64,000 bases of DNA, taken from NCBI RefSeq assembly GCF_015160855.1, contig NZ_CP063373.1, forward strand, positions 1,178,001 to 1,242,000, given 5' to 3'. This document shows, piece by piece, positions 2,570 to 20,240 of this stretch (its first letter is position 1; every line of letters starts with the position of its first letter). Position numbers and translations under genes: made by a program. This DNA comes from Streptomyces ferrugineus. GTDB lineage: Bacteria; Actinomycetota; Actinomycetes; Streptomycetales; Streptomycetaceae. The notes beneath the pieces were generated by a model. The model had not been told where the DNA came from. It did not search any database and was given only the letters and a program-made list of their open reading frames with translations.

Positions 2570-3361
2570 TCAAAGGGCCTCCAGCGCATCCCTGACCCTC
2601 TTCAGCAGCGCGACGTAGGGATCGGCGGCGGCGTCGGGCGGGGGAGCGGGGGCGGGCGGCGGCTGCGCGGACACGAGCCCCGCCGCGGCCAGCCGCCGCA
2701 GGTGCACCAGCGTGTGGAACGCCGGTCTGCCCAGCTCCCGCGCGATGTCCACGGCCCTGCGCACGCCGTCCACCTGGGCCAGCACGGCGGCCTGCCGGGA
2801 CGGGACCGCCGGCGCCGCCACCGGGTCGGCCCGGATCAGGGGCGCGCCGTCGGTCGCCGGGTCGGGCCAGATACGGCGCAGCAGCGCGCGGCGGCGCAGC
2901 GTCTCGCGCTCCAGCTCGGCCACCGGCACCGGATGCACCGCGGCCAGCCAGTGCGCGGCGCCGTAGCGGAAGCGGCCCGGCGTGCTGCTGGGCGCGAGGG
3001 CGAAGTACGCGGCGTCGTACACCGCGCCGACCTGCGCCAGCTCCAGCGCGCCCGGCGTGACGCCGTACCGCCGCAGCCGCCCCTCGTCGGCGCTGTCCTC
3101 GACGTCCCGCCAGGTCTCGGCGTCGAGGGCGCCATGGGCCGTCAGGAGCACGCCGAGGCCGGGTGCGAGCGGGCTCTCGGCGTGCACGATCCGGCCCTCG
3201 GCCAGATGGAGCGTGCCGTGCTCGCGGTCCAGGACCCCGGTGGCCCGCTCCTCGGCGAGCCGGGTCAGCATCGGGGAGACGCCGCCCCCGCAGCGCACCC
3301 GGGCCGCCGTGCGGTCCCGGACCGGCAGGCGCGGTGGCGGGGTGGTTCCGACCGCGGTCAT
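2570..3361 (-). CDS. DUF4388 (PATAN-like) and winged-helix-like protein
   Basis: A 263-residue protein starting at MTAVGTTPPP; its ATG overlaps the stop of the upstream roadblock gene by four bases, indicating translational coupling. Residues about 30-75 match the DUF4388/PATAN pattern (LTRLAEERATGVLD, then HLAEGRIVHAESP). A C-terminal stretch at about 195-235 (VRRAVDIARELGRPAFHTLVHLRRL) looks like a winged helix, and the tail is Pro/Ala-rich. DUF4388 proteins in other bacteria accompany MglA/MglB polarity modules and response regulators. Here it is probably the adaptor or output component of the roadblock operon; no catalytic motif is visible. Confidence 0.65.
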   Translation of the reverse strand: MTAVGTTPPPRLPVRDRTAARVRCGGGVSPMLTRLAEERATGVLDREHGTLHLAEGRIVHAESPLAPGLGVLLTAHGALDAETWRDVEDSADEGRLRRYGVTPGALELAQVGAVYDAAYFALAPSSTPGRFRYGAAHWLAAVHPVPVAELERETLRRRALLRRIWPDPATDGAPLIRADPVAAPAVPSRQAAVLAQVDGVRRAVDIARELGRPAFHTLVHLRRLAAAGLVSAQPPPAPAPPPDAAADPYVALLKRVRDALEAL

Positions 3362-5462: not shown

Positions 5463-7127
5463 ATGTCAGGACCCCGCCCCGTACGAGCACCGCGCGGTAC
5501 GGAACCGAGCGCCCTGGGATGGCAGCAGGAAGCCGCCCTGCGGATGCTCCAGAACAACCTCGACCCCGAGGTCGCCGAGCACCCCGACAAGCTCGTCGTC
5601 TACGGCGGCACCGGCAAGGCGGCCCGCGACTGGCGCTCCTTCGACGCGATGGTGCGCACCCTGAGGACCCTGAAGCAGGACGAGACGATGCTCGTCCAGT
5701 CCGGCCGCCCCGTCGGCGTCATGCAGACCCACGAGTGGGCCCCGCGCGTCCTGATCGCCAACTCCAACCTGGTCGGCGACTGGGCCAACTGGGAGGAGTT
5801 CCGCCGACTGGAACAGCTGGGCCTGACCATGTACGGCCAGATGACGGCCGGCTCCTGGATCTACATCGGCACCCAGGGCATCCTCCAGGGCACCTACGAG
5901 ACCTTCGCCGCCGTCGCCGCCAAGAAGTTCGGCGGCACCCTCGCCGGGACGATCACCCTCACCGCCGGCCTCGGCGGCATGGGCGGCGCCCAGCCGCTCG
6001 CCGTGACCATGAACGACGGCGTCGCCATCTGCGTCGACTGCGACCCGCGCGCCATCGAGCGGCGCATCGAGCACCGCTACCTGGACGTGAAGGCCGACTC
6101 CCTCGACCACGCCCTCCAACTGGCCACCGAGGCCCGCGACGCCCGCCGCCCGCTGTCCATCGGCGTCCTCGGCAACGCGGCCGAACTGGTGCCGCAGCTC
6201 CTCGCCATGGGCGCACCCATCGACATCGTGACCGACCAGACCTCGGCCCACGACCCGCTGGCCTACCTCCCGCTGGGCGTCGACTTCGACGAGATGGCCT
6301 CCTACGCCGCCAAGGACCCGGCGGGCTTCACGAGCCGGGCACGCGAGTCGATGGCGCGGCACGTCGAAGCCATGGTCGGCTTCATGGACGCCGGCGCCGA
6401 GGTCTTCGACTACGGCAACTCGATCCGCGGCGAGGCCCGACTCGCCGGCTACGACCGGGCCTTCGCCTTCCCCGGCTTCGTCCCCGCCTACATCCGCCCC
6501 CTCTTCTGCGAGGGCAAGGGCCCCTTCCGCTGGGCGGCCCTCTCGGGCGACCCGGCCGACATCGCCAGGACCGACAAGGCGATCCTGGAGCTGTTCCCGG
6601 AGAACGAGTCCCTCGCCCGCTGGATCAGGATGGCCGGCGAGCGGGTCCACTTCCAGGGCCTGCCCGCACGCATCTGCTGGCTCGGCTACGGCGAGCGGGA
6701 CAAGGCGGGCGAGCGCTTCAACGACATGGTCGCCAGCGGCGAGCTGACCGCGCCCCTGGCGATCGGCCGCGACCACCTCGACTGCGGGTCCGTCGCCTCG
6801 CCGTACCGCGAGACCGAGGCCATGCTCGACGGCTCCGACGCGATCGCCGACTGGCCGCTGCTGAACGCCATGGTCAATGTGGCCTCCGGGGCGTCCTGGG
6901 TGTCCATCCACCACGGCGGCGGGGTCGGCATGGGCCGGTCCCTCCACGCCGGCCAGGTGACGGTGGCCGACGGCACGAAGCTGGGCGGCGAGAAGATCCG
7001 CCGGGTGCTGACGAACGACCCGGGCATGGGCGTCATCCGGCACGTGGACGCGGGGTACGACATCGCGGAGTCGGTCGCCGACGAGCGCGGTGTGCGGGTC
7101 CCGATGCGTGAAGGTGACGACGCGTGA
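5463..7127 (+). CDS. hutU: urocanate hydratase
   Basis: A 554-residue urocanase, the usual family length, converting urocanate to 4-imidazolone-5-propionate with tightly bound NAD, the second step of histidine breakdown. The NAD-binding signature [10 protein letters not shown] lies about one third of the way in, and the C-terminal third carries the conserved [13 protein letters not shown] and [11 protein letters not shown] segments. The ATG at 5463 is preceded by GGGAGG at about eight bases; an in-frame ATG 17 codons earlier lacks that support. It is the first gene of the hut operon; its stop overlaps the next start by four bases. The histidine ammonia-lyase gene hutH is not in this window. 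Confidence 0.97.
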
Positions 7128-8341
7128 CCTTCCACAGCATGTGGGCGGAGCTGCTGCCGATCGGCCGCAGCTCCGCCTCCGGCGGCTACCGTCGCTACGC
7201 CTGGACCGGCGCCGACCTCGACTGCCGGGCCTGGTTCAAGCAGCAGGCGGAGTCCCGCGGGCTGACCTACGAGGTCGACCGGAACGGGAACCAGTGGGCC
7301 TGGCTCGGCGACCCCGCCGCCGGGGACGCCGTCGTCACCGGGTCGCATCTCGACTCCGTGCCGGACGGAGGGGCCTTCGACGGGCCCTTGGGCGTCGTGT
7401 CCTCCTTCGCGGCCCTCGACGAACTGCGCGGCAGGGGCGTGGACCTCGCCAAGCCCCTCGCCATCGTCAACTTCGGCGACGAGGAGGGCGCCCGCTTCGG
7501 GCTCGCCTGTGTCGGCTCCCGGCTCACCGCCGGGCAGCTCACCGTCGACGACGCCCACCGGCTGACCGACGGCGACGGCGTCAGCCTGCCCCACGCCATG
7601 GAGGCCGCCGGCTACGACCCCGGCTCCATCGGCCCCGACCCCGAGCGGCTCGGCCGCATCGGCGCCTTCGTCGAACTGCATGTCGAGCAGGGGCGGGCGC
7701 TGGACCTGTCCGGCGACCGGGTCGGCATCGCCAGCGCCATCTGGCCGCACGGCCGGTGGCGGTTCGACTTCCGGGGCGAGGCCAACCACGCGGGGACCAC
7801 CCGGCTCGTGGACCGGCGCGACCCCATGCTGACGTACGCCGAGACCGTGCTCGCCGCCCGCCGGGAGGCCGAACTCGCCGGTGCCGTCGCCACCTTCGGC
7901 AAGATCGCCGTCGAGCCCAACGGCGTCAACGCCATCCCCTCCCTGGTGCGCGGCTGGCTCGACTCCCGTGCCGAGGACCAGTCGAGCCTCGACGCCGTCG
8001 TCGGCGGCATCGAGAAGGCGGCCCGGCAGTACGCGGAGGCGCACGGCATCGACCTCGACGTCGTCCGGGAGTCCTTCACGCCCGTGGTCGAGTTCGACCA
8101 CGCCCTGCGCGACGAACTGGCCCGCATCCTGGTCAAGGACACCGACATCACCGTGCCCGTCCTGGGTACCGGTGCCGGACACGACGCCGGAATCCTCTCC
8201 GGCACGATTCCGACCGCCATGCTGTTCGTACGCAACCCCACGGGCGTCTCGCACTCCCCGGCCGAGTTCGCCGCCGAGGACGACTGCGTGGCCGGAGTCA
8301 TCGCCCTCGCCGACGTACTGGAAGGACTGGCCTGCACGTGA
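7124..8341 (+). CDS. M20-family Zn amidohydrolase (allantoate/carbamoyl-amino-acid hydrolase type)
   Basis: A 405-residue metal-dependent amidohydrolase of the M20 hydantoinase/carbamoylase group, usually annotated allantoate amidohydrolase. Metal ligand motifs are visible: [32 protein letters not shown], and [10 protein letters not shown] near the C-terminus. It lies inside the hut operon between hutU and hutF with four-base overlaps at both ends. HutF makes N-formylglutamate, and no HutG-type deformylase is present in the window, so the likely job is hydrolysis of N-formyl-L-glutamate to glutamate and formate. The family is sequence-supported; the substrate is inferred from context. Confidence 0.85.
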
Positions 8342-11663: not shown

Positions 11664-13223
11664 TCACGACGCCCCCGCCCGCCACCGCTGGTCCTCCCGC
11701 CCCGACTCCCGCACCAGGGACAGCGACTTGTCGTCCCCCGGTGTCAGCGCATGGTCCAGGGCGATCCCGGGGCGGACCACCCCGCGGGAATCCACCCAGA
11801 ACCTGAGGTTCTGCCCGTTGTATCCGTACACCGAGTCGCACGTCCAAATGCCGACGCCCCGGTACACGGAACCGCGGCTGTCCAGGCAGTAGTCGGGGTA
11901 GGCGTACGACTGCAGCACGCCGCGCGCGGAGTCGACGCGCCACCGTTGGTCGCGCGAGGACGTGCAGGTGGCCATGACCACGTTTGTGCCGTTCGCCGGG
12001 GCGCCGTCGATGTCCAGGCACAGGCCCGACGCGACGTTCACGACCTGGGCGTATGCACCGCCCGGCGGATATGTGGGGGAGGGCGGCGGCTTCGGGCGTG
12101 CCGTCTTCGTCGGCGTCGAACTCCGCGTGGGCGAGGGCGACTTGGAGCTCCGCGAGGGTGACGGCGACGAAGACGGTGACGGCGAGGACGCAGAGGCCGA
12201 TGGTGTGGCCGACACCGTCGTGGTCACGGTCACCGCGACCGGCGGCACGCTCGCCGCGGTGCTCGCCGCACCCACCGGATCCGGCGACGACGTGTCGCCC
12301 TGTGTCGCCAGGAACGCCACCAGCGCCGCCCCGAGCGCCGCCGACACCAGCACGACCCGGCGCCGGTCCAGCGGCCGGCCCCGCCCGGCAGCGAGGCCCC
12401 CGGCCACCCGCTCAGCCGTCTGTGCCGCGCCCCCGGCCGCATACGCCGTCCCGCCCCACGGCAACAACCCCTCCGCCAGCGCCGTGCGCGGAGTGTCCCG
12501 CAGGGCCGACAACTCCTCGTACGCCGTCGTGCAGTGCGGGCAGCGGGCCATGTGGGCGCGCAGATCAGTGCTGTCGCGGGGGCTGTCGGGCCGTACGGAC
12601 TCCTCGATGAGGCGGCCGAAGTCGCGGCAGGCGAGGTCGTCGGAGGCGGCGAGGCGGGCGCGCAGACACGCGCGGGAGAGCTGCTGGAGCGCCGGGTGGG
12701 TGCCGTAGGTGACGTCCTCGCGGGTGAGGCCGAGGAGAGCGGCCGTGCGCTCCGGTGGCTCCTGCTCCAGGACTCCGTACCAGATCAGGCCCTGGGTGCG
12801 CGGCGGCAGGGACTGGAACGCGGTGAGCATGGGCGGGACCGGGCCGGCGGGGCCGGCCGTGTTCAGCACGAGCAGCACGCTCGCGTCGAGGCCCGCCGCG
12901 CGCTCGTCCGTCGCCCAGGTCCCGGCCGACCGGGCGGTCAGCAGCAGGAGTTGGTGGCGCCAGGGGACGCCGGGGTCGATGCCGCGGGCCGTCTGGCGGG
13001 CCGCGAGGGTGAAGGACTGGGCCGCCAACTGCCGTGCCATGGAGTGGTTCGGGGTGCACAGACCGGCGTAGGCGAGGACGTGCGCGTGATGGCGGGTGCG
13101 CAGTTCCTGGAGTGCCGTGTACGCGGTGGACGTGTCGGAGCGCAGCAGTTCGGTCAGTCGCGCGTCGGACGCGCCCTCGTGCATGCCCCCGCCACGGTCC
13201 CCACGATCGTCGGACCGAGCCAT
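11664..13223 (-). CDS. sigma-like/zinc-finger membrane protein with C-terminal ricin-type lectin domain
   Basis: A 519-residue mosaic protein. Residues about 20-200 resemble the arrangement of an ECF sigma factor (LAAQSFTLAARQTARG, then SLPPRTQGLIWYGVLEQE and an HTH-like LLGLTREDV segment). At about 225-245 is a zinc-finger/anti-sigma-like HMARCPHCTTAYEEL. A single transmembrane segment (VVLVSAALGAALVAFLA) lies near residue 300, followed by a Ser/Pro/Thr-rich linker of about 80 residues. The last 125 residues are a ricin B-type beta-trefoil (NVASGLCLDI, CTSSRDQRWRV, EDQRWRAGAS). The predicted layout is sigma-like part in the cytoplasm, carbohydrate-binding part outside. It may be a membrane-bound sensor; whether the sigma-like part binds RNA polymerase is unknown. 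Confidence 0.75.
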   Translation of the reverse strand: MARSDDRGDRGGGMHEGASDARLTELLRSDTSTAYTALQELRTRHHAHVLAYAGLCTPNHSMARQLAAQSFTLAARQTARGIDPGVPWRHQLLLLTARSAGTWATDERAAGLDASVLLVLNTAGPAGPVPPMLTAFQSLPPRTQGLIWYGVLEQEPPERTAALLGLTREDVTYGTHPALQQLSRACLRARLAASDDLACRDFGRLIEESVRPDSPRDSTDLRAHMARCPHCTTAYEELSALRDTPRTALAEGLLPWGGTAYAAGGAAQTAERVAGGLAAGRGRPLDRRRVVLVSAALGAALVAFLATQGDTSSPDPVGAASTAASVPPVAVTVTTTVSATPSASASSPSPSSSPSPSRSSKSPSPTRSSTPTKTARPKPPPSPTYPPGGAYAQVVNVASGLCLDIDGAPANGTNVVMATCTSSRDQRWRVDSARGVLQSYAYPDYCLDSRGSVYRGVGIWTCDSVYGYNGQNLRFWVDSRGVVRPGIALDHALTPGDDKSLSLVRESGREDQRWRAGAS

Positions 13224-13478: not shown

Positions 13479-14432
13479 TCACTCCTCGATCGTCAGACCC
13501 TTTCTGAGTCTGATCAGGGTCCGCGACAGCAGGCGCGACACATGCATCTGGGAGATGCCGAGTTCCTCGCCGATCTCCGACTGGGTCATGCCCGCGACGA
13601 ACCTCAGGGAGAGGATCTTCCGGTCCCGCGGCGGGAGTTCGGCGATGAGCGGCTTCAACGACTCGACGTACTCGATGCCCTCGATGCCGTGGTCCTCGTA
13701 GCCGATCCGGTCGGCCAGCGCGCCCTCGGCGTCGTCCTCCTCAGGCTGGGCGTCCAGCGACGAGGCGGTGTAGGCGTTCGACGCCGCCATGCCCTCGACG
13801 ACCTCGTCGTTGGTCAGGCCCAGGCGCTCGGCCAGTTCCGCCACCGTGGGCGCGCGGTCGAGTCGCTGGGCCAGCTCGTCACCGGCCTTGGCCAGGTCGA
13901 GCCGCAGCTCCTGAAGCCGGCGCGGCACCCGTACCGACCACGACGTGTCGCGGAAGAAGCGCTTTATCTCGCCGATGATCGTCGGCATCGCGAAGGTGGG
14001 GAACTCCACGCCGCGGCTGAGCTCGAAGCGGTCGATCGCCTTGATCAGGCCGATGGTGCCGACCTGGATGATGTCCTCCATCGGCTCGCTGCGCGAGCGG
14101 AAGCGGGAGGCGGCGAACTTGACCAGCGCGAGGTTGAGTTCGACGAGCGTGTTGCGGACGTACGAGTATTCGTGGGTCCCTTCCTCCAGCGACTCCAGCC
14201 GCTCGAAGAGGGTCTTGGACAGGGCCCGTGCGTCCACCGGCCCCACCTCGTCGTACGGGGGGATGTCCGGAAGCCCGGCGAGTGCGTCGTCGTGGCCCAA
14301 GTCATGCCCCAAGTCATTCTCGAAGGCATGCTCGGAACCTGCGTCGCTGCTGCGCTCGATGGGATCCAGCTGTTCCGGTAGGGATGCCGACGTCGCGCTC
14401 TGGGTATGCGATGCGTCGAGCCGGGGTGACAT
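13479..14432 (-). CDS. RNA polymerase sigma factor, SigB/SigF/SigG family (SigI-like)
   Basis: About 317 residues. It has region 2 (LVKFAASRF, MEDIIQVGTIGLIKAIDRFE, FPTFAMPTIIGEIKRFFRD), region 3 (RLQELRLDLAKAGDEL) and region 4 with a C-terminal HTH (GMTQSEIGEELGISQMHVSR). There is an acidic N-terminal extension of about 70 residues. The ATG at 14432 is chosen because GGAGGA lies just upstream. The gene is divergent from a STAS anti-sigma antagonist, with a HATPase anti-sigma gene beyond, so activity is probably set by partner switching. From memory, S. coelicolor sigI lies near hutI with PrsI and ArsI partners; this gene is the probable orthologue, but the paralogue (several SigB-type factors exist) cannot be fixed by eye. 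Confidence 0.9.
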   Translation of the reverse strand: MSPRLDASHTQSATSASLPEQLDPIERSSDAGSEHAFENDLGHDLGHDDALAGLPDIPPYDEVGPVDARALSKTLFERLESLEEGTHEYSYVRNTLVELNLALVKFAASRFRSRSEPMEDIIQVGTIGLIKAIDRFELSRGVEFPTFAMPTIIGEIKRFFRDTSWSVRVPRRLQELRLDLAKAGDELAQRLDRAPTVAELAERLGLTNDEVVEGMAASNAYTASSLDAQPEEDDAEGALADRIGYEDHGIEGIEYVESLKPLIAELPPRDRKILSLRFVAGMTQSEIGEELGISQMHVSRLLSRTLIRLRKGLTIEE

Positions 14433-14681
14433 GATGTCCTCCATCGTTCTCGGCATATGGCTGCCGAAGCCTGTCGTGCACTGCGGTGTGCGGCGCCTCC
14501 AAGCCGGCCGAGTCGGTTACGTGTCTCTACTAGCCCTACCCGCTTTCCCGAGCCCACCGCAAGTGCGCTCTGGTCCGAAATGTCCGATTCTGTGTAGATG
14601 TTCGGGTGTTGGAGGGCGTAGGGAAGGCGTAGTGTTCGAGAGCGTCAGTCAGCAGCCACGACGTCGGGAGTGAGACACGGC

Positions 14682-15068
14682 ATGGACCGCGGGACGGTCG
14701 GCAGCGCACAGTCTGGCCGACTTCTGGTCGAGGTGCGGGAAGAGGGCTCCAGTGCCGTCGTGACCCCGGCGGGTGAGTTGGATCACCACACCGCCGATTT
14801 GTTGCGTGAGCCACTCGAGGACTGCCTCGACAAAGGCTTCAGTCGGCTGGTCGTCGACTGCTCGCGGCTCGAGTTCTGTGACTCCACGGGGTTGAACGTG
14901 CTGCTCGGGGCGCGCCTGAAAGCGGAGGCGGCCGGGGGCGGGGTGCATCTCGCGGGCATGCTGCCCGTGGTCGCCCGAGTGTTCGAGATCACAGGGGCCG
15001 AGGCCGTCTTCACGGTCCACGACTCGCTCGAAGCCGCGCTGGCCGACGGATCCGGCGGCGCCGGCTGA
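14682..15068 (+). CDS. STAS-domain anti-sigma factor antagonist
   Basis: A 128-residue STAS protein of the SpoIIAA/RsbV type. The phosphorylatable serine lies in the conserved CDSTGLNVLLGA loop, after GELDHHTADLL. When unphosphorylated such proteins bind the anti-sigma kinase and release the sigma factor. The ATG at 14682 is preferred over a GTG four codons earlier because the GGGAG at 14666-14670 overlaps that GTG and sits about 11 bases from the ATG. It is divergent from the sigma gene (249 bases between) and followed after 238 bases by the HATPase gene, which supports a partner-switching set. Confidence 0.88.
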   Translation: MDRGTVGSAQSGRLLVEVREEGSSAVVTPAGELDHHTADLLREPLEDCLDKGFSRLVVDCSRLEFCDSTGLNVLLGARLKAEAAGGGVHLAGMLPVVARVFEITGAEAVFTVHDSLEAALADGSGGAG

Positions 15069-15306
15069 CCCCGCACGTCAGCCGCTGCATCAGACGTCAC
15101 ATCATTCGGCCCGAATACAGGGGTGTTCCCTCGGCCGGGTCGGGCAGGAGACATCCTGAACCTGTCGGCTGTGACGTCGGCCACCGGGGGTGGGGGGACT
15201 GTGACCGACGTATCGGGCAAGGAACGTGTAACGACGTACTGACTCCGCGTACTGACTTCTGAATCGTGTGAACGTTGAACTGGTGAATCGGTGAGGTGAA
15301 GCGCTG

Positions 15307-15879
15307 ATGAGCACCACCCGGCCTTTCCCGCCGGGCGACCGCGGCCCTGAGCCCAGCGGCGCTTCCGGGGCGTCCGAGGAGGGCGTGTCAGGGGCGGGAA
15401 CGTCCGACGGGGGCGCCGTGCCGGCCCTGCGGCCCAGCGGGCCCGAGGCGTCCGCCGAGGCCGCGACGGGGCGCCAGGTCCGCCGACTGGCCTTCGAGGG
15501 CCAGAGCGGGGTCGTACCGCTCGCCCGGGACTTCGCCCGGCAGGCTCTGTACGCCTGGGGCTGGCTGCCCGCCGCCACCGCCGACCAGCGGGCCGCGGCC
15601 GAGGATGTGCTGCTCGTGGTCTCCGAGCTGGTCACCAACGCCTGTCTGCACGCCGAGGGCCCGGACGAGATGTGGATCGCCTGCGACAACAAGGTCATCC
15701 GCCTCGAGGTCTCCGACAAGGGCACCGGCCAGCCGGCGCCGCGCACCCCGCACCGCGCGGGGCGCCCCGGCGGCCATGGCATGTTCATCGTGCAGCGGCT
15801 GTGCCTGGACTGGGGCGTCATGCGCACGCCGGGAGTCGCGGGCAAGACGGTGTGGGCGGAGCTCGGCGCCCCGGCGTAA
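15307..15879 (+). CDS. HATPase (RsbW-type) anti-sigma regulatory kinase
   Basis: A 190-residue GHKL ATPase-fold protein without a histidine-phosphotransfer domain. Residues 1-55 are a Gly/Ser/Ala-rich, probably disordered leader. The ATP site shows the N-box SELVTNACLHA, the G1-box VSDKGTG and the G2-like GGHGMFIVQRL. Such proteins bind SigB-type factors and phosphorylate the STAS antagonist. GAGGTGAAG lies a short distance before the ATG. Its natural partners would be the adjacent STAS protein and sigma factor, inferred from context. Confidence 0.85.
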   Translation: MSTTRPFPPGDRGPEPSGASGASEEGVSGAGTSDGGAVPALRPSGPEASAEAATGRQVRRLAFEGQSGVVPLARDFARQALYAWGWLPAATADQRAAAEDVLLVVSELVTNACLHAEGPDEMWIACDNKVIRLEVSDKGTGQPAPRTPHRAGRPGGHGMFIVQRLCLDWGVMRTPGVAGKTVWAELGAPA

Positions 15880-16207
15880 ATCGTTTTTGCTGGGAGGGGC
15901 CCGGCGGGCCTCCTCCGTCATCATGCGCCCGCCTGCGCCCCGAGGGGCCACCCGGGCTGGAGCGCACACCGTGCTCGACCCACCGGCCGGCCGCTCCCCG
16001 CGATCTTGAAGCCTGACTCAGAAGTCCGACCCCGAAGTCCGACCCCGAAGTCCGACCCCGAACCCCGACCCGGGTTACCCAGGGTCACCCCCTCCACTCG
16101 GTGCACTCCGGATCGCCACAACTCCGGCGTGCGCCGTGTCTTCCTTCCTCAAGGCCCCAGGCGTACCTTGACGGCCGATCTGATATGCCGTCAGGAATGA
16201 GGGGACC
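15880..16207. other. 328-base intergenic region between anti-sigma and surface-protein genes
   Basis: No gene seen. It contains a 13 bp tandem repeat (16021-16072) and presumably the promoter of the surface-protein operon; no clear -35/-10 pair was recognised. Confidence 0.6.
16021..16072. repeat. 13 bp tandem direct repeat, three exact copies and one degenerate
   Basis: GAAGTCCGACCCC occurs at 16021-16033, 16034-16046 and 16047-16059, followed by a degenerate fourth copy to 16072. It lies about 136 bases upstream of the LPQTG protein gene. It may be a slippage product or a set of protein-binding sites. Confidence 0.8.
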
Positions 16208-16897
16208 GTGTCGAAGCAGAAGCGAACCGCCGCGCTCGCGACCGCCGCGGCCCTGGCCGGCTCGGCGGTGCTGATGGCCGCCCCCGCGGCCCGGGCCGAG
16301 GTCGTCGACGTCAACTACGCCTGCAAGACGCCGATCGGCGACAAGAGCGCCGTCTCGCCCATCGACATCAAGGGCGTCAAGAGCGGCGGCGGCTACAAGA
16401 TCACCATGTCCTGGCAGAAGGGCGTCTCGTCCAGCCCCGTCGAACTCGGCAAGGGCGCGATGAACCCGAGCGCCACCATCAAGCTGGGCGGCGCCGACAG
16501 CGGCACCATGAACGTGACCGGCCCGGCCAACCAGGAGGCGATCCCCGCCAACACCCCCATCAAGATCAACGACTTGACGGGCACCTACACCCCGAAGAAG
16601 ACCGGCGAGGTCACCTTCACCGCGGGTGTCCTCACCATCAAGGCCCTCGGCACGACCACCACGTGCACGCCCACCAACGACCCCGGGCCGTCGCTGAGCC
16701 TCGACGTCACGGCGGCGAGCGGTGGCGGCGGAGCCGACAGCGGAACCCAGAGCGGCTCCGGCTCGGGCGACGAGCTTCCGCAGACCGGCCCCGAGGACTC
16801 CGCGATCGCCCTCGGCACCCTCGGCGGCACGGTCCTGCTCGCGGGCGCGGCAGGCGCGCTGTGGCTGACCCGCAGGGGGCAGGCAGTACGCCGCTGA
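16208..16897 (+). CDS. secreted surface protein with LPQTG sortase signal
   Basis: A 229-residue exported protein. Residues 1-30 are a signal peptide ending in AARA. Residues about 36-158 form a domain (YACKTPIGDK to TTTTCTPT) with one Cys at each end that could make a disulfide. A Gly/Ser linker leads to LPQTG at 190-194, a hydrophobic segment and an Arg-rich tail, so sortase anchoring to peptidoglycan is expected. GAGGGGACC precedes the GTG start. The domain recurs in the C-terminal half of the product at 18849-20240, three genes downstream, so the operon encodes paralogous surface proteins. The domain is not one I can name. Confidence 0.8.
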   Translation: MSKQKRTAALATAAALAGSAVLMAAPAARAEVVDVNYACKTPIGDKSAVSPIDIKGVKSGGGYKITMSWQKGVSSSPVELGKGAMNPSATIKLGGADSGTMNVTGPANQEAIPANTPIKINDLTGTYTPKKTGEVTFTAGVLTIKALGTTTTCTPTNDPGPSLSLDVTAASGGGGADSGTQSGSGSGDELPQTGPEDSAIALGTLGGTVLLAGAAGALWLTRRGQAVRR

Positions 16898-16927
16898 CCG
16901 CCCCGTACTGAGCCGCTGGAGCCGCCG

Positions 16928-17779
16928 ATGTCGTCAGCCGCCCGTGTCCTGTGCCTGCCCCTGCTGCTACCGCTCCTGCTGGCGGCCGCCCCCGCGGCGA
17001 CCGCCGCCGAGTCCTGGTCCGTCGCGCCCACCGGCGGCGGTCGCCCGTCGTTCTACACCGAGGGCGGGCCCGGCACGGTCCAGCGGGACACGGTGTCCGT
17101 GACGAACCGGGGCGAGAAGCCGGTCACCGTACGCCTGCACGGCACCGGCGTCCCCGTCGCCTTCGCCGAGAGCCGGGTGCGGATCCCGGCCCGCACCCGC
17201 GCCGAGGTCCCGTTCACGGTGACCGTCCCGACGGGCACGGCCCCCGGCGACCGCTCCGGCGAGATCGTCGCCCGCGACACCGACGGCCGCGCCGAGACCG
17301 TCGGGCTCCGCCTGCGCGTCACCGGCCCCGAACTGTCCGCGCTGACCGTCGAGCGGGTGGCGGTGCGCACCGACGGCATCACCTACGAGCTGGTCAACCG
17401 CGGCACGACCCCCCTCACCCCGACCCTCGCGGTCCGCGCCGACGGCGTCTTCGGCCGCCTCCTCGACCGCGCCCCGCGCACCCTCCCCGTCGATCTGCCG
17501 CCCGGCAGCCGTACCAAGCTCACCGAGCCCTGGCCCGACCGCCCCGCCCTCGACGCGGTCGACGTCCGGCTGACGGTGACGGCGACGGGCGGCGCGCGCG
17601 ACACGGCACAGGCGTCGGCGCGGTTCGTGGACCGGGGCGCGGTGGCGGGGACCGCAGGGGCGATGGCGGCGGTGGGCGCCCTGTTCGTCGTACGACATCG
17701 CAGGCGCCGTGGGCCGGGCGTCGCCGAGGAGCCCCAACGACCGCTGGAACAAGCCGAACTGACGGGAGCGGGGACGTGA
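16928..17779 (+). CDS. secreted membrane-anchored DUF916-like surface protein
   Basis: A 283-residue protein with a signal peptide (LLLPLLLAAAPAATA) and beta-rich extracellular domains. The first (about 30-130) resembles COG1470/DUF916 Ig-like domains (TVQRDTVSVTNRGEKPVTVRL, then PFTVTVPTGTAPGDRSGEIVA). A C-terminal transmembrane helix (AGTAGAMAAVGALFVV) is followed by a basic cytoplasmic tail. In Firmicutes, DUF916 proteins work with WxL surface proteins; here the neighbours are sortase substrates. It lies 30 bases after the LPQTG gene and its stop overlaps the next GTG by four bases, so it is within the operon. Confidence 0.75.
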   Translation: MSSAARVLCLPLLLPLLLAAAPAATAAESWSVAPTGGGRPSFYTEGGPGTVQRDTVSVTNRGEKPVTVRLHGTGVPVAFAESRVRIPARTRAEVPFTVTVPTGTAPGDRSGEIVARDTDGRAETVGLRLRVTGPELSALTVERVAVRTDGITYELVNRGTTPLTPTLAVRADGVFGRLLDRAPRTLPVDLPPGSRTKLTEPWPDRPALDAVDVRLTVTATGGARDTAQASARFVDRGAVAGTAGAMAAVGALFVVRHRRRRGPGVAEEPQRPLEQAELTGAGT

Positions 17780-18852
17780 GCGCCAAGGTGCGGATCGTGG
17801 CGTTGCTGGCCGTGCTGGCGCTGCTGTCGCCGGCGGCGACCGCGTCGGCGGCCGACGACCCGCCCTCCGTGAAGCTGTCCAAGGCCCAGGCGGGGACGGG
17901 CGGTTCGATCACCGTGACCGGCGGCGGCTGGCGGCCGCGTGCCCTGCTGATGCTCCTGATCTGCGGCCAGTCCGTGCCGTCGACCGGGGTGACCGGTGGC
18001 ACCAACTCCTGCGCCAACGCGGACGGCAGGGCCGTGACGACGGACGCCGAGGGCCGCTTCAGCCGGAAGCTGCCGGTGGCCGAGCCGCCCGTGCCGTGCC
18101 CGTGCGTGGTGCATGTGGCGACGGTGACCGGAGCGAAGGCCGAGGCCGACGCCATCTTCCAGGTCGCCGGGCACGCGGTCGAGCCGCTGCCCGCGGAGCC
18201 GGCGGGCGGCCGCCTGTCGGTGCTCACCGACACCCGGCTGGACGGCTCCAGCGGCCTGCTCACCTGGTTCGGCGCGCCGCCGGCGCGGACGCTGGTCTTC
18301 ACCGTGGGCAACGTCGGCACCTCCGCCGTCAAGAACCCGCTCTTCCAAGTCGGCACCTCCCACGGCGTGTTCGCCCCGCAGTGGCAGGAGCAGCAGTGGC
18401 GCGGCACGATCCAGCCGGGGCGCAAGGCGCGGATCGAGCTGCCGGTGGAGCTCGCCGCCGGGGCGCACGGCGACTACACCGTCTCCCTGAAGTACGGCGG
18501 CAAGGTGATGGCCGAACAGCCCTGGGGCGTGGGCCGGCCCTGGGGCGTGACGCTGTTCTGGATCCTGGTCGGCCTGGTCGTCCCGGCGGCGCTGTTCCGC
18601 GTCGGGATGGCGGTGGTGGACCGGATACGGCCGCGGCAGCCGGCCCGCCGTCGCGGCCTGCGCCTGCCCGAAGTCGCCCTTCGACTGCCGGGGTTGAGGC
18701 CCCGGGAAGAGGCGAGGCACGCGGCTTCCCCCTCCTCGACCCTGCCGTGGTTCGCCCCGGACAACGACCCGGGTACGGCCGGCCGGCTCTCCGCACCGCA
18801 CGACGACAGCCCGACGAGTCCTACGACTCCGACCAGGAAGGGACCCCCGTGA
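17776..18852 (+). CDS. secreted membrane-anchored protein of the surface-protein operon
   Basis: A 358-residue protein. The signal peptide ends near ATASA. An extracellular region contains an Ig-like first part (SVKLSKAQAGTGGSITVTGGGW) with Cys pairs (LLICGQS, NSCANA, CPCVVHV) and a second beta-rich part (FTVGNVGTSAVKNPLFQVG). A transmembrane helix (LFWILVGLVVPAALFRVGMAV) at about 255-275 is followed by a cytoplasmic tail of about 80 residues rich in Arg and Pro. GTGA overlaps at both ends tie it to its neighbours. I do not recognise a named family; a scaffold or adhesion role is a guess. Confidence 0.7.
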   Translation: MSAKVRIVALLAVLALLSPAATASAADDPPSVKLSKAQAGTGGSITVTGGGWRPRALLMLLICGQSVPSTGVTGGTNSCANADGRAVTTDAEGRFSRKLPVAEPPVPCPCVVHVATVTGAKAEADAIFQVAGHAVEPLPAEPAGGRLSVLTDTRLDGSSGLLTWFGAPPARTLVFTVGNVGTSAVKNPLFQVGTSHGVFAPQWQEQQWRGTIQPGRKARIELPVELAAGAHGDYTVSLKYGGKVMAEQPWGVGRPWGVTLFWILVGLVVPAALFRVGMAVVDRIRPRQPARRRGLRLPEVALRLPGLRPREEARHAASPSSTLPWFAPDNDPGTAGRLSAPHDDSPTSPTTPTRKGPP

Positions 18853-20240
18853 GCAAGCGAAGGAGAGTCATACCGGCCATGCCCGGGAGAGCGAGTGCGG
18901 CGGGCGTCGCCCTGATGCTCGGCGGCGCGGGCGTCCTGCTCGGCGTGTCCGCCGGGACCGCCCAGGCGGCGGAGGTGGCGTACGCGACCGAGTGCATCCC
19001 GCCCGCCATCTCCGGGCTGCCGCCGGTCCAGGGCACCACGAAGGTGGAGGTCACCGCGCCCGCCGAGGCGAAGGTCGGCGACGAGGTGGAGATCGTCTGG
19101 AAGTTCGTCCAGGCGGCGTCCAAGAACCCCGACATCCTCGACCTGGGCGAGAACACCGTCCGGCCGACGGGAACCCTGAAGGCGGCCGGCGCGCAGACGG
19201 CGGACGTCGCCATGGAGGGCCCCCGGGAGAACCCGCCGATCCCCAAGGGCAGCGACATGAAGCTGTCCGACATGAAGGGCAAGCTGAAGCTGACGGCGCC
19301 GGGCGAGGTGACGCTGACGCCGGACGCGTACGACATCAACGTCAACCAGCCGATCTCCACGGACACCAAGTGCTCGCCGAAGGAGACGGTGCAGAAGGCG
19401 GCGACGATCAAGGTGACGGACGGGAGCGGAGGCTCGGGCGGCACGACCGGCGGACTGCCCACGGTCGTGCCGACCCTGCCGACGAGCGTGCCGACCGGCC
19501 TGCCCACGGGCTCCTCCGATCCGACGCCGAGTGAGAGCGAGACGGGCGGCACGGACACCGGCGGCACGAGTGCCGGCGGCACCAGCACCGGTGGCGGCGA
19601 CGGCGGCCAGACCGACTTCACCGGCAAGGAGGTCCAGGTCCCCTACGAGTGCAAGACGCCCATCGGCGACAAGGAGGCGACCTCGCCGGTCCAGATCGAC
19701 GCCAAGAAGAACGGCGGCGGCTTCGACCTGACGGTCCAGTTCAAGAAGTCGGTGATGGACAGCCCCGCCGACATCCCCAAGGACTCGGTCAAGCCGTCGA
19801 TGGAGGTCGTCCTGGGCGGCGCGGACAAGGGCACGGTCCATGTCGAGGGCCCGACCAACTCCGAGGCCATCAAGGCGGGCGACCCGATCGAGATCCCCGA
19901 CCTCAAGGGCACCTACAAGCCGGGCGCGAGCGGCGAGTCGACCCTGTCGCCGGGCGTGCTGACGGTGAAGGCCCTGGGTACGACGACGACCTGCACGCCC
20001 ACGAAGACCGAGGTCTCCCTGACCCTGGACACCACGGAACAGGCGAGCGGCGCGTCCGGCGGCGGCTCGACCGGCGGTTCGGCGGGAGGCTCCGCCGGCG
20101 GCTCGTCGACGGACGGCGGTTTGGCGGCGACGGGCGCGGAGGACCACGGTGCCTTGAAGGCCCTGGGCCTGGTCGCGGGAACTGCGCTGCTGCTCGGGGG
20201 AGCGGTGTTCACGTTCATGCCAAGGCGGAGGACGCGCTGA
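18849..20240 (+). CDS. secreted surface protein with LAATG sortase signal and two related domains
   Basis: A 463-residue exported protein. The signal peptide spans residues 1-40 (cleavage near AQA). Domain 1 (about 46-190) and domain 2 (about 265-385) are both beta-rich with terminal Cys residues and a GTL/GVL-type end. Domain 2 (YECKTPIGDKEATSP to TTTTCTPT) is clearly paralogous to the product at 16208-16897; domain 1 looks like a more distant copy. Low-complexity Thr/Gly/Pro/Ser linkers separate the domains. The C-terminus is LAATG (425-429), hydrophobic helix, RRRTR: a class E-type sortase signal, unlike LPQTG in the first gene. Start is a GTG overlapping the previous stop. Confidence 0.8.
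   Translation: MSKRRRVIPAMPGRASAAGVALMLGGAGVLLGVSAGTAQAAEVAYATECIPPAISGLPPVQGTTKVEVTAPAEAKVGDEVEIVWKFVQAASKNPDILDLGENTVRPTGTLKAAGAQTADVAMEGPRENPPIPKGSDMKLSDMKGKLKLTAPGEVTLTPDAYDINVNQPISTDTKCSPKETVQKAATIKVTDGSGGSGGTTGGLPTVVPTLPTSVPTGLPTGSSDPTPSESETGGTDTGGTSAGGTSTGGGDGGQTDFTGKEVQVPYECKTPIGDKEATSPVQIDAKKNGGGFDLTVQFKKSVMDSPADIPKDSVKPSMEVVLGGADKGTVHVEGPTNSEAIKAGDPIEIPDLKGTYKPGASGESTLSPGVLTVKALGTTTTCTPTKTEVSLTLDTTEQASGASGGGSTGGSAGGSAGGSSTDGGLAATGAEDHGALKALGLVAGTALLLGGAVFTFMPRRRTR

Follow-up and report, generated by a model that had tools for sequence, protein, structure and literature searches.

Cell-surface complexes built around WxL proteins are known mainly from Firmicutes, which contribute over 91% of 938 sequences, mostly of gut commensals (PMC9772566). 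In the Csc gene clusters of this phylum, the available part of PMC1534035 describes a DUF916 protein (CscA), the WxL proteins CscB and CscC, and a short LPxTG protein (CscD), and a partnership between WxLIP and WxL domains in other bacteria is described in the accessible part of PMC10599100. Here, we examine a related locus in Streptomyces ferrugineus, found in a 64,000-nucleotide stretch of contig NZ_CP063373.1 (positions 1,178,001 to 1,242,000; hereafter the window, to which all coordinates refer unless a locus is named), where four co-directional genes, g1 to g4, lie within 16208-20240. We judge it rather probable that their products form a surface complex that spans the wall and descends from a WxL/WxLIP system of actinobacteria, minus the WxL subunit.

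With signal peptides and helices called by hydropathy only, each of the four forward-strand genes encodes a protein with one N-terminal and one C-terminal hydrophobic stretch. The product of g1 (16208..16897) is a predicted exported protein of 229 residues, having one copy of what we call domain A (approximately residues 31-170, with Cys39 and Cys153), an LPQTG signal, a transmembrane helix, and a basic tail. Starting 30 bases further on, g2 (16928..17779) encodes a signal peptide, a WxLIP (DUF916)-like ectodomain, and a WxLIP-type C-terminal transmembrane helix (residues 236-256) followed by basic residues. It overlaps through a GTGA with g3 (17776..18852), whose protein comprises a signal peptide, a neocarzinostatin-like domain (residues 28-131), an immunoglobulin (Ig)-like domain (146-253), a transmembrane helix (257-284), and a tail with an LPWF motif. 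A second GTGA overlap leads into g4 (18849..20240), which encodes a signal peptide, two copies of domain A (residues 36-193 and 255-398), an LAATG signal, a transmembrane helix, and a basic tail. Both g1 and g4 show the layout of a sortase substrate, namely a signal peptide, pentapeptide, hydrophobic helix, and basic tail. An earlier sequence-only reading had proposed a four-gene sortase-substrate operon at this place, and its positions, intergenic gap, and overlaps are all confirmed. It had also recognized the domain shared by the first and fourth genes, but overlooked the second copy in g4, and had rightly taken the middle genes to encode membrane-anchored, Ig-like proteins, one of them DUF916-like, but overlooked the neocarzinostatin-like domain of g3.

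The tie to WxL systems comes from relatives of the operon. Gene order was counted in two sets of loci, these being 80 named Streptomyces loci and 49 family loci with g3; the latter come from 48 of the 50 g3-bearing genomes (G020 and G038 were left out, and G029 was counted twice), and the overlap of the sets is slight (family loci L040 and L041 are named loci L154 and L160). A WxL-type gene separates g1 from g2 in 16 of the 49 family loci, with 15 at 570-667 bits and one (L229) weaker, and as a rule there is one such gene at this position, not two. The encoded protein of about 440 residues starts with domain A, continues with a neocarzinostatin-like module, and ends in a WxL domain, and it has a WxLIP as its neighbor. 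In profile comparisons, the N-terminal module of this protein matched the first domain A of g4 (100%, E 1e-44), the one in g1 (99.0%, E 8e-18), and the second in g4 (E 4e-17), and the middle module matched the neocarzinostatin-like domain of g3 (95.9%, E 5e-9); the WxL module itself matched neither of these domains. These similarities relate g1/g4, g3, and g2 to a single WxL system, as counterparts of its modules or partners.

All 18 aligned WxL-type proteins share an invariant G-W-x-L (where x is S or T) inside the pattern DxRGxxxGWxLxxxxxxF, and an invariant L-T-L at the C-terminus. Whereas the Firmicutes WxL domains covered in the available parts of PMC1534035 and PMC10599100 have two W-x-L motifs each, there is a single one in each of the 16 relatives' proteins that we inspected, and the L-T-L stands where the second motif might be. 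Moreover, three of the 18 aligned proteins are also matched by the chromoprotein model. Among 121 genomes of the family Streptomycetaceae, which formed the set searched for g1, g3, g4, and WxL, 23 have a match that exceeds the Pfam cut-off for the WxL family (PF13731, 25 bits). The source genome, a single contig of 9.96 Mb, gave no candidates in a search with PF13731, and a 439-column WxL protein profile (A5) found three places only, which are the two domain-A copies of g4 and that of g1. The WxL C-terminal domain also occurs in other families, with 42 of 396 genomes of the phylum matching A5, many of them weakly or with the middle domain only. At a second chromosomal locus of other Streptomyces genomes, apart from the four-gene operon, a WxL gene sits beside a g2-like (WxLIP) gene in eight of eight loci (L109-L116). 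In another genus of the family, two loci (L117, 1-14977; L119, 1-13928) hold seven domain-A/WxL-type open reading frames (ORFs) that all run in the same direction and are interrupted by no more than two other short ORFs, which amounts to an expanded WxL array. Another actinobacterial family has, at locus L241 (G398:C12), two adjacent short WxL-type frames (2137-2580 and 2861-3304) and a longer one (6773-7441), and these look like small and large WxL proteins near each other.

For g2, which is the sole match to its own profile in the source genome, the kinship with WxLIP proteins is clearest among its relatives. In fact, 9 of 10 chosen g2 relatives or paralogues exceed the cut-off of WxLIP_PGBD (PF06030, 27.3 bits) at 29.9-35.0 bits, and 10 of 19 operon g2 proteins match this family (DUF916) at E ≤0.1. 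Along with the WxL gene in 16 of the 49 family loci, this makes the WxL/DUF916 link of the sequence-only reading not only right but stronger than proposed. A profile of the chosen relatives and paralogues (A6) matched EfmWxLIP1 at E 0.0011, the g2 family profile (A3) at only 0.33. In some of the 10 relatives, DUF7507 matches the region equivalent to DUF3324, the second WxLIP domain (HBD). As many of 120 listed Streptomyces g2-type relatives bear the name "DUF916" or "WxL protein peptidoglycan domain-containing", the family link is already known at the annotation level. Kinship of g2 to the Ig-like domain of g3 reached merely 11.3% in profile comparison and was set aside. At another locus (L112:7412-9277, minus strand), a 621-codon frame opens with a match to WxLIP_PGBD and closes with one to a KH-domain GTPase, being either a genuine fusion or a sequence error.

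Structure models were made for g3 and, with AlphaFold2, for g4, and all of the modeled domains are predicted beta-sandwiches, a fold that is common in surface proteins. The first domain of g3 is predicted to have the neocarzinostatin apoprotein fold, with a partial sequence match of 21.2 bits to PF00960 (cut-off 25) and 30.4 bits to the chromoprotein family, which is below the family-level score of 86. The LPWF motif is kept in 119 of the 128 g3 ORFs scoring at least 200, and the tail that bears it is probably cytoplasmic. Our literature search found no paper pairing "Neocarzinostatin family protein" with Streptomyces.

The two domain-A copies in g4 are connected through a low-complexity linker and are homologous to each other (hhalign 99.2%, E 2.3e-19). 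In the model of g4, the per-block predicted local distance difference test (pLDDT) score is 87-97 across residues 41-190 and 261-390, and fold comparison gave good coverage for residues 31-196 only, that is, the first copy. Domain A carries no Pfam name, with g4 lacking any Pfam match at E 1, and a scan of 21 g1 proteins returning the anchor motif only, plus one weak CshA repeat (E 0.17). The unnamed domain of the sequence-only reading equals the N-terminal module of the relatives' WxL protein. DUF6801 and HtaA were considered as possible relatives, but neither turned up in the Pfam scans, and the idea of domain A being a diverged WxL domain is unsupported, as the g1 domain and both g4 copies compared with the WxL C-terminal domain at 0.2-0.4% in profile comparison. 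There was no WxL structure among the best 50 Foldseek rows for the g4 model, which is no evidence of absence. A match to domain A was found in 8 of the 396 phylum genomes, all from one genus, and the domain is also present in other genera of the same family.

Across the 121 family genomes, g1 is found in 51, g3 in 50, and g4 in 50, and 49 have all three. In one genome (G116), g3 occurs but neither g1 nor g4 does, two show weak matches only (g1-like in G016; g1- and g4-like in G021), and in the most divergent genera g1 and g4 are matched weakly, perhaps through other proteins with domain A. For the gene orders, we used stop-to-stop ORFs, each labeled by the best of five profiles, such that edge-truncated or frameshifted genes count as absent or split (e.g., L191, L203, and L224). 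On this basis, the named loci have the order g1-g2-g3-g4 in 64, g1-g3-g4 in 11, and a partial or split arrangement in five, and the family loci have g1-g2-g3-g4 in 24 and g1-WxL-g2-g3-g4 in 12. The distance from the g1 stop to the g3 stop is 1204-1376 bases in 12 loci without g2 versus 1946-2031 in three that keep it, as expected for a deletion. A lack of joint conservation had been set beforehand as a refutation of the sequence-only reading; the four genes are conserved together, except that some loci have lost g2.

The sorting signals divide the two domain-A proteins. In the named loci, LPQTG or LPKTG is present in 77 of 78 g1 and LAxTG in 77 of 80 g4; among the four ORFs lacking the motif, the g4 of L156 has LAESG, the one from L165 is cut by a contig edge, and two from L191 are fragments. 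For the family loci, where 43 g1- and 41 g4-labeled ORFs scoring at least 200 were considered and weaker ones dropped, g1 has LPxTG in 39, LAxTG in three (one of which, in L224, is likely to be the final piece of a split g4), and LSQTG in one, whereas g4 has LAxTG in 39, LPNTG in one, and no motif in one. Because of these two sets of counts, we regard the division as strong in Streptomyces, yet not absolute in other genera, and to that extent the contrast between LPQTG and LAATG noted earlier has held. The source genome has 10 sortase matches, none within the window, and the seven that were classified are four of class E, three of class F, and none of class C. According to the available part of PMC5148588, SrtE1 of Streptomyces coelicolor favors LAxTG, and by analogy g4 is probably anchored via a class E sortase. 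With both class E and class F encoded in the genome, the two signals may stand for two sortase classes.

When modules are found fused in a single protein, this is a recognized hint that their separate versions act together. Since the same modules are fused elsewhere and the four genes share an operon, a complex of g1, g4, g3, and g2 suggests itself, in which the four proteins would assemble together. Here, g2 and g3 would sit in the membrane and extend into the wall, and g1 and g4 would be covalently bound to peptidoglycan, probably via two sortase routes (LPxTG, and LAxTG by class E). The outcome would be a membrane-to-surface scaffold of beta-sandwich domains, and the conserved LPWF in the g3 tail may tie this protein to an internal partner. 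The role of the complex, at which we can only guess, may be to organize the hyphal surface or to capture an outside polymer. A more specific version, which we offer tentatively and would not bet on, is that evolution re-engineered a Streptomyces WxL system, discarding the WxL subunit but retaining the N-terminal and middle modules of that subunit as separate proteins, thereby giving one assembly with three anchor places (membrane, LPxTG, and LAxTG) and two sortase classes.

Several observations speak against a WxL-derived complex. The window g2 scores just 13.4 bits against WxLIP_PGBD, which is under the cut-off, and DUF3324 is unlisted at E 0.01 in the 10 g2 relatives scanned. Of the 14 WxL-type proteins that were scanned singly (these and the 10 g2-type ones having been hand-chosen from divergent lineages and second loci), only two reach 25 bits (L124, 26.5; L117:12094, 33.1), with 10 others matching below the cut-off and two not at all. 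Moreover, 13 of the 49 family loci deviate from the standard order, the LPxTG/LAxTG division has its exceptions, and the shared modules could point to a pool of Ig-like surface domains in general use instead of to assembly. As for g2, its ratio of nonsynonymous to synonymous substitution (dN/dS) is 0.415 versus 0.17-0.23 for the other three in one genome pair, making it the least constrained, and it alone is missing in 11 of the 80 named loci and is therefore dispensable for whatever g1, g3, and g4 do. Both of these features would suit a WxLIP whose WxL partner is gone. At least one genome (G089) has lost g2 at the operon, yet keeps a WxL-WxLIP pair elsewhere.

Some of the same points lend weight to a rival explanation, by which four co-expressed surface proteins share Ig-like modules through duplication and act independently, as a surface-coat operon with no complex. 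That the modeled domains belong to a fold common in surface proteins, and that g2 can be lost, would suit this well, but the near-perfect co-occurrence of g1, g3, and g4, the translational overlaps, and the existence of a WxL protein that unites these modules make it rather unlikely in our estimation. Less likely again, the chromoprotein-type domain might make g3 a small-molecule binder or sensor that signals via its LPWF tail, with g1 and g4 as accessory wall proteins. The predicted fold invites such a thought, although the 30.4 bits fall below the chromoprotein cut-off, neocarzinostatin is absent from the best 50 rows of the g3 Foldseek search, and residues 66-82 of the model have a pLDDT under 50; in addition, a related module occurs within the WxL protein, which suggests a structural role for this domain. 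Sortase motifs, together with tandem beta-sandwich domains in g4, could also be taken to mean that g1 and g4 are polymerized as pilus-like subunits, but with none of the 10 sortase matches in the window and no class C among those classified, we find this very hard to credit. The WxL-derived complex accordingly remains our preferred reading, and for the operon, a variant that derives from a WxL system and lacks WxL is a better explanation than a novel type of apparatus. In suggesting an undescribed apparatus, the sequence-only reading was right only in part, since this is a derivative of a known kind and many of its g2-type relatives are already labeled DUF916/WxL, even if, judging by titles and abstract openings, we found no paper on a Streptomyces system. 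What emerges is a WxL-related system in Streptomycetaceae, situated mostly at one conserved chromosomal place and including a variant without WxL. The operon shows which parts of a WxL system are separable, gives context to a domain unnamed in Pfam, and offers a test of two sortase classes serving one assembly.

Ahead of the operon, a conserved element (16168..16197, plus strand) with an inverted repeat (TGACGGC, an 11-base gap, and GCCGTCA) ends 10 bases before the g1 start and is possibly an operator or promoter region. In an alignment of 31 upstream regions (30 named loci plus the window), the columns of this block are mostly at least 90% alike, with the inverted-repeat pattern kept in 24 and the whole element, if one A/G change is tolerated, in 23. 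In a larger set of loci, there were 58 pattern matches near 91 g1 genes and one elsewhere, and the window has one match. Genome-wide, exact palindrome matches number 10 against six for a reversed control, which is little above it, and the palindrome is therefore not shown to be a regulon marker. Further upstream (13479..15879) are genes for a sigma factor (minus strand), an anti-sigma antagonist-like protein, and an anti-sigma kinase-like protein (both plus strand), with roles assigned by ORF reading; of 20 loci retrieved, 18 have all three types upstream of g1, and these are possible regulators outside the complex. Downstream, response-regulator and histidine-kinase genes are present in all 20 of these loci, and a POT transporter gene in 19. 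Adjoining the sigma-factor gene is a gene (11664-13223, minus strand) for a 519-residue protein, found in 6 of the 20 loci, whose C-terminal part looks by reading like a ricin-type lectin.

Set against known systems, g4 resembles the substrates of class E sortases (chaplins and others) in its LAxTG, hydrophobic stretch, and basic tail, whereas g1 has an LPxTG, which SrtE1 does not favor according to the available part of PMC5148588. A putative membrane-anchored protein of Corynebacterium diphtheriae (PDB ID: 3lso) ranks third by E-value among the Foldseek rows listed, behind two arrestin-type chains, but shares 14% identity and no detectable sequence match, and the one paper found to mention this code deals with Cryptosporidium. 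With the neocarzinostatin chromoproteins, the first domain of g3 has in common a predicted fold and part of its sequence, yet g3 is membrane-anchored, multi-domain, and below the family cut-off. Relatives of g2 match the DUF916 part of EfmWxLIP1 (PDB IDs: 9i1y and 9i25), and g2 has a C-terminal transmembrane helix, but it differs in that the 10 relatives scanned gave no DUF3324 match and the window protein is sub-threshold. Judged by titles and abstract openings, the literature on WxL in Streptomyces (including PMC12537917) held no paper on a Streptomyces WxL system, and these genes are not named in the available parts of three papers on actinobacterial sortase substrates (PMC13251363, PMC10924467, and PMC3123327). 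The Csc clusters offer the closest comparison. In contrast to them, the source genome is without a detectable WxL protein and has two domain-A proteins with different signals as well as a neocarzinostatin-like membrane protein; moreover, g1 is 229 residues long, against 90-140 for CscD in the part of PMC1534035 available. As in the Csc clusters, however, exported surface proteins are encoded in one operon, including one that is membrane-anchored and of DUF916 type and one predicted to be sortase-anchored, and loci of some relatives have the WxL protein beside the WxLIP. Since WxL is missing, the operon, which would work like a WxL cluster only if its products do assemble, falls outside the published definition of one, even though it has kept the CscA-like and sortase-anchored parts.

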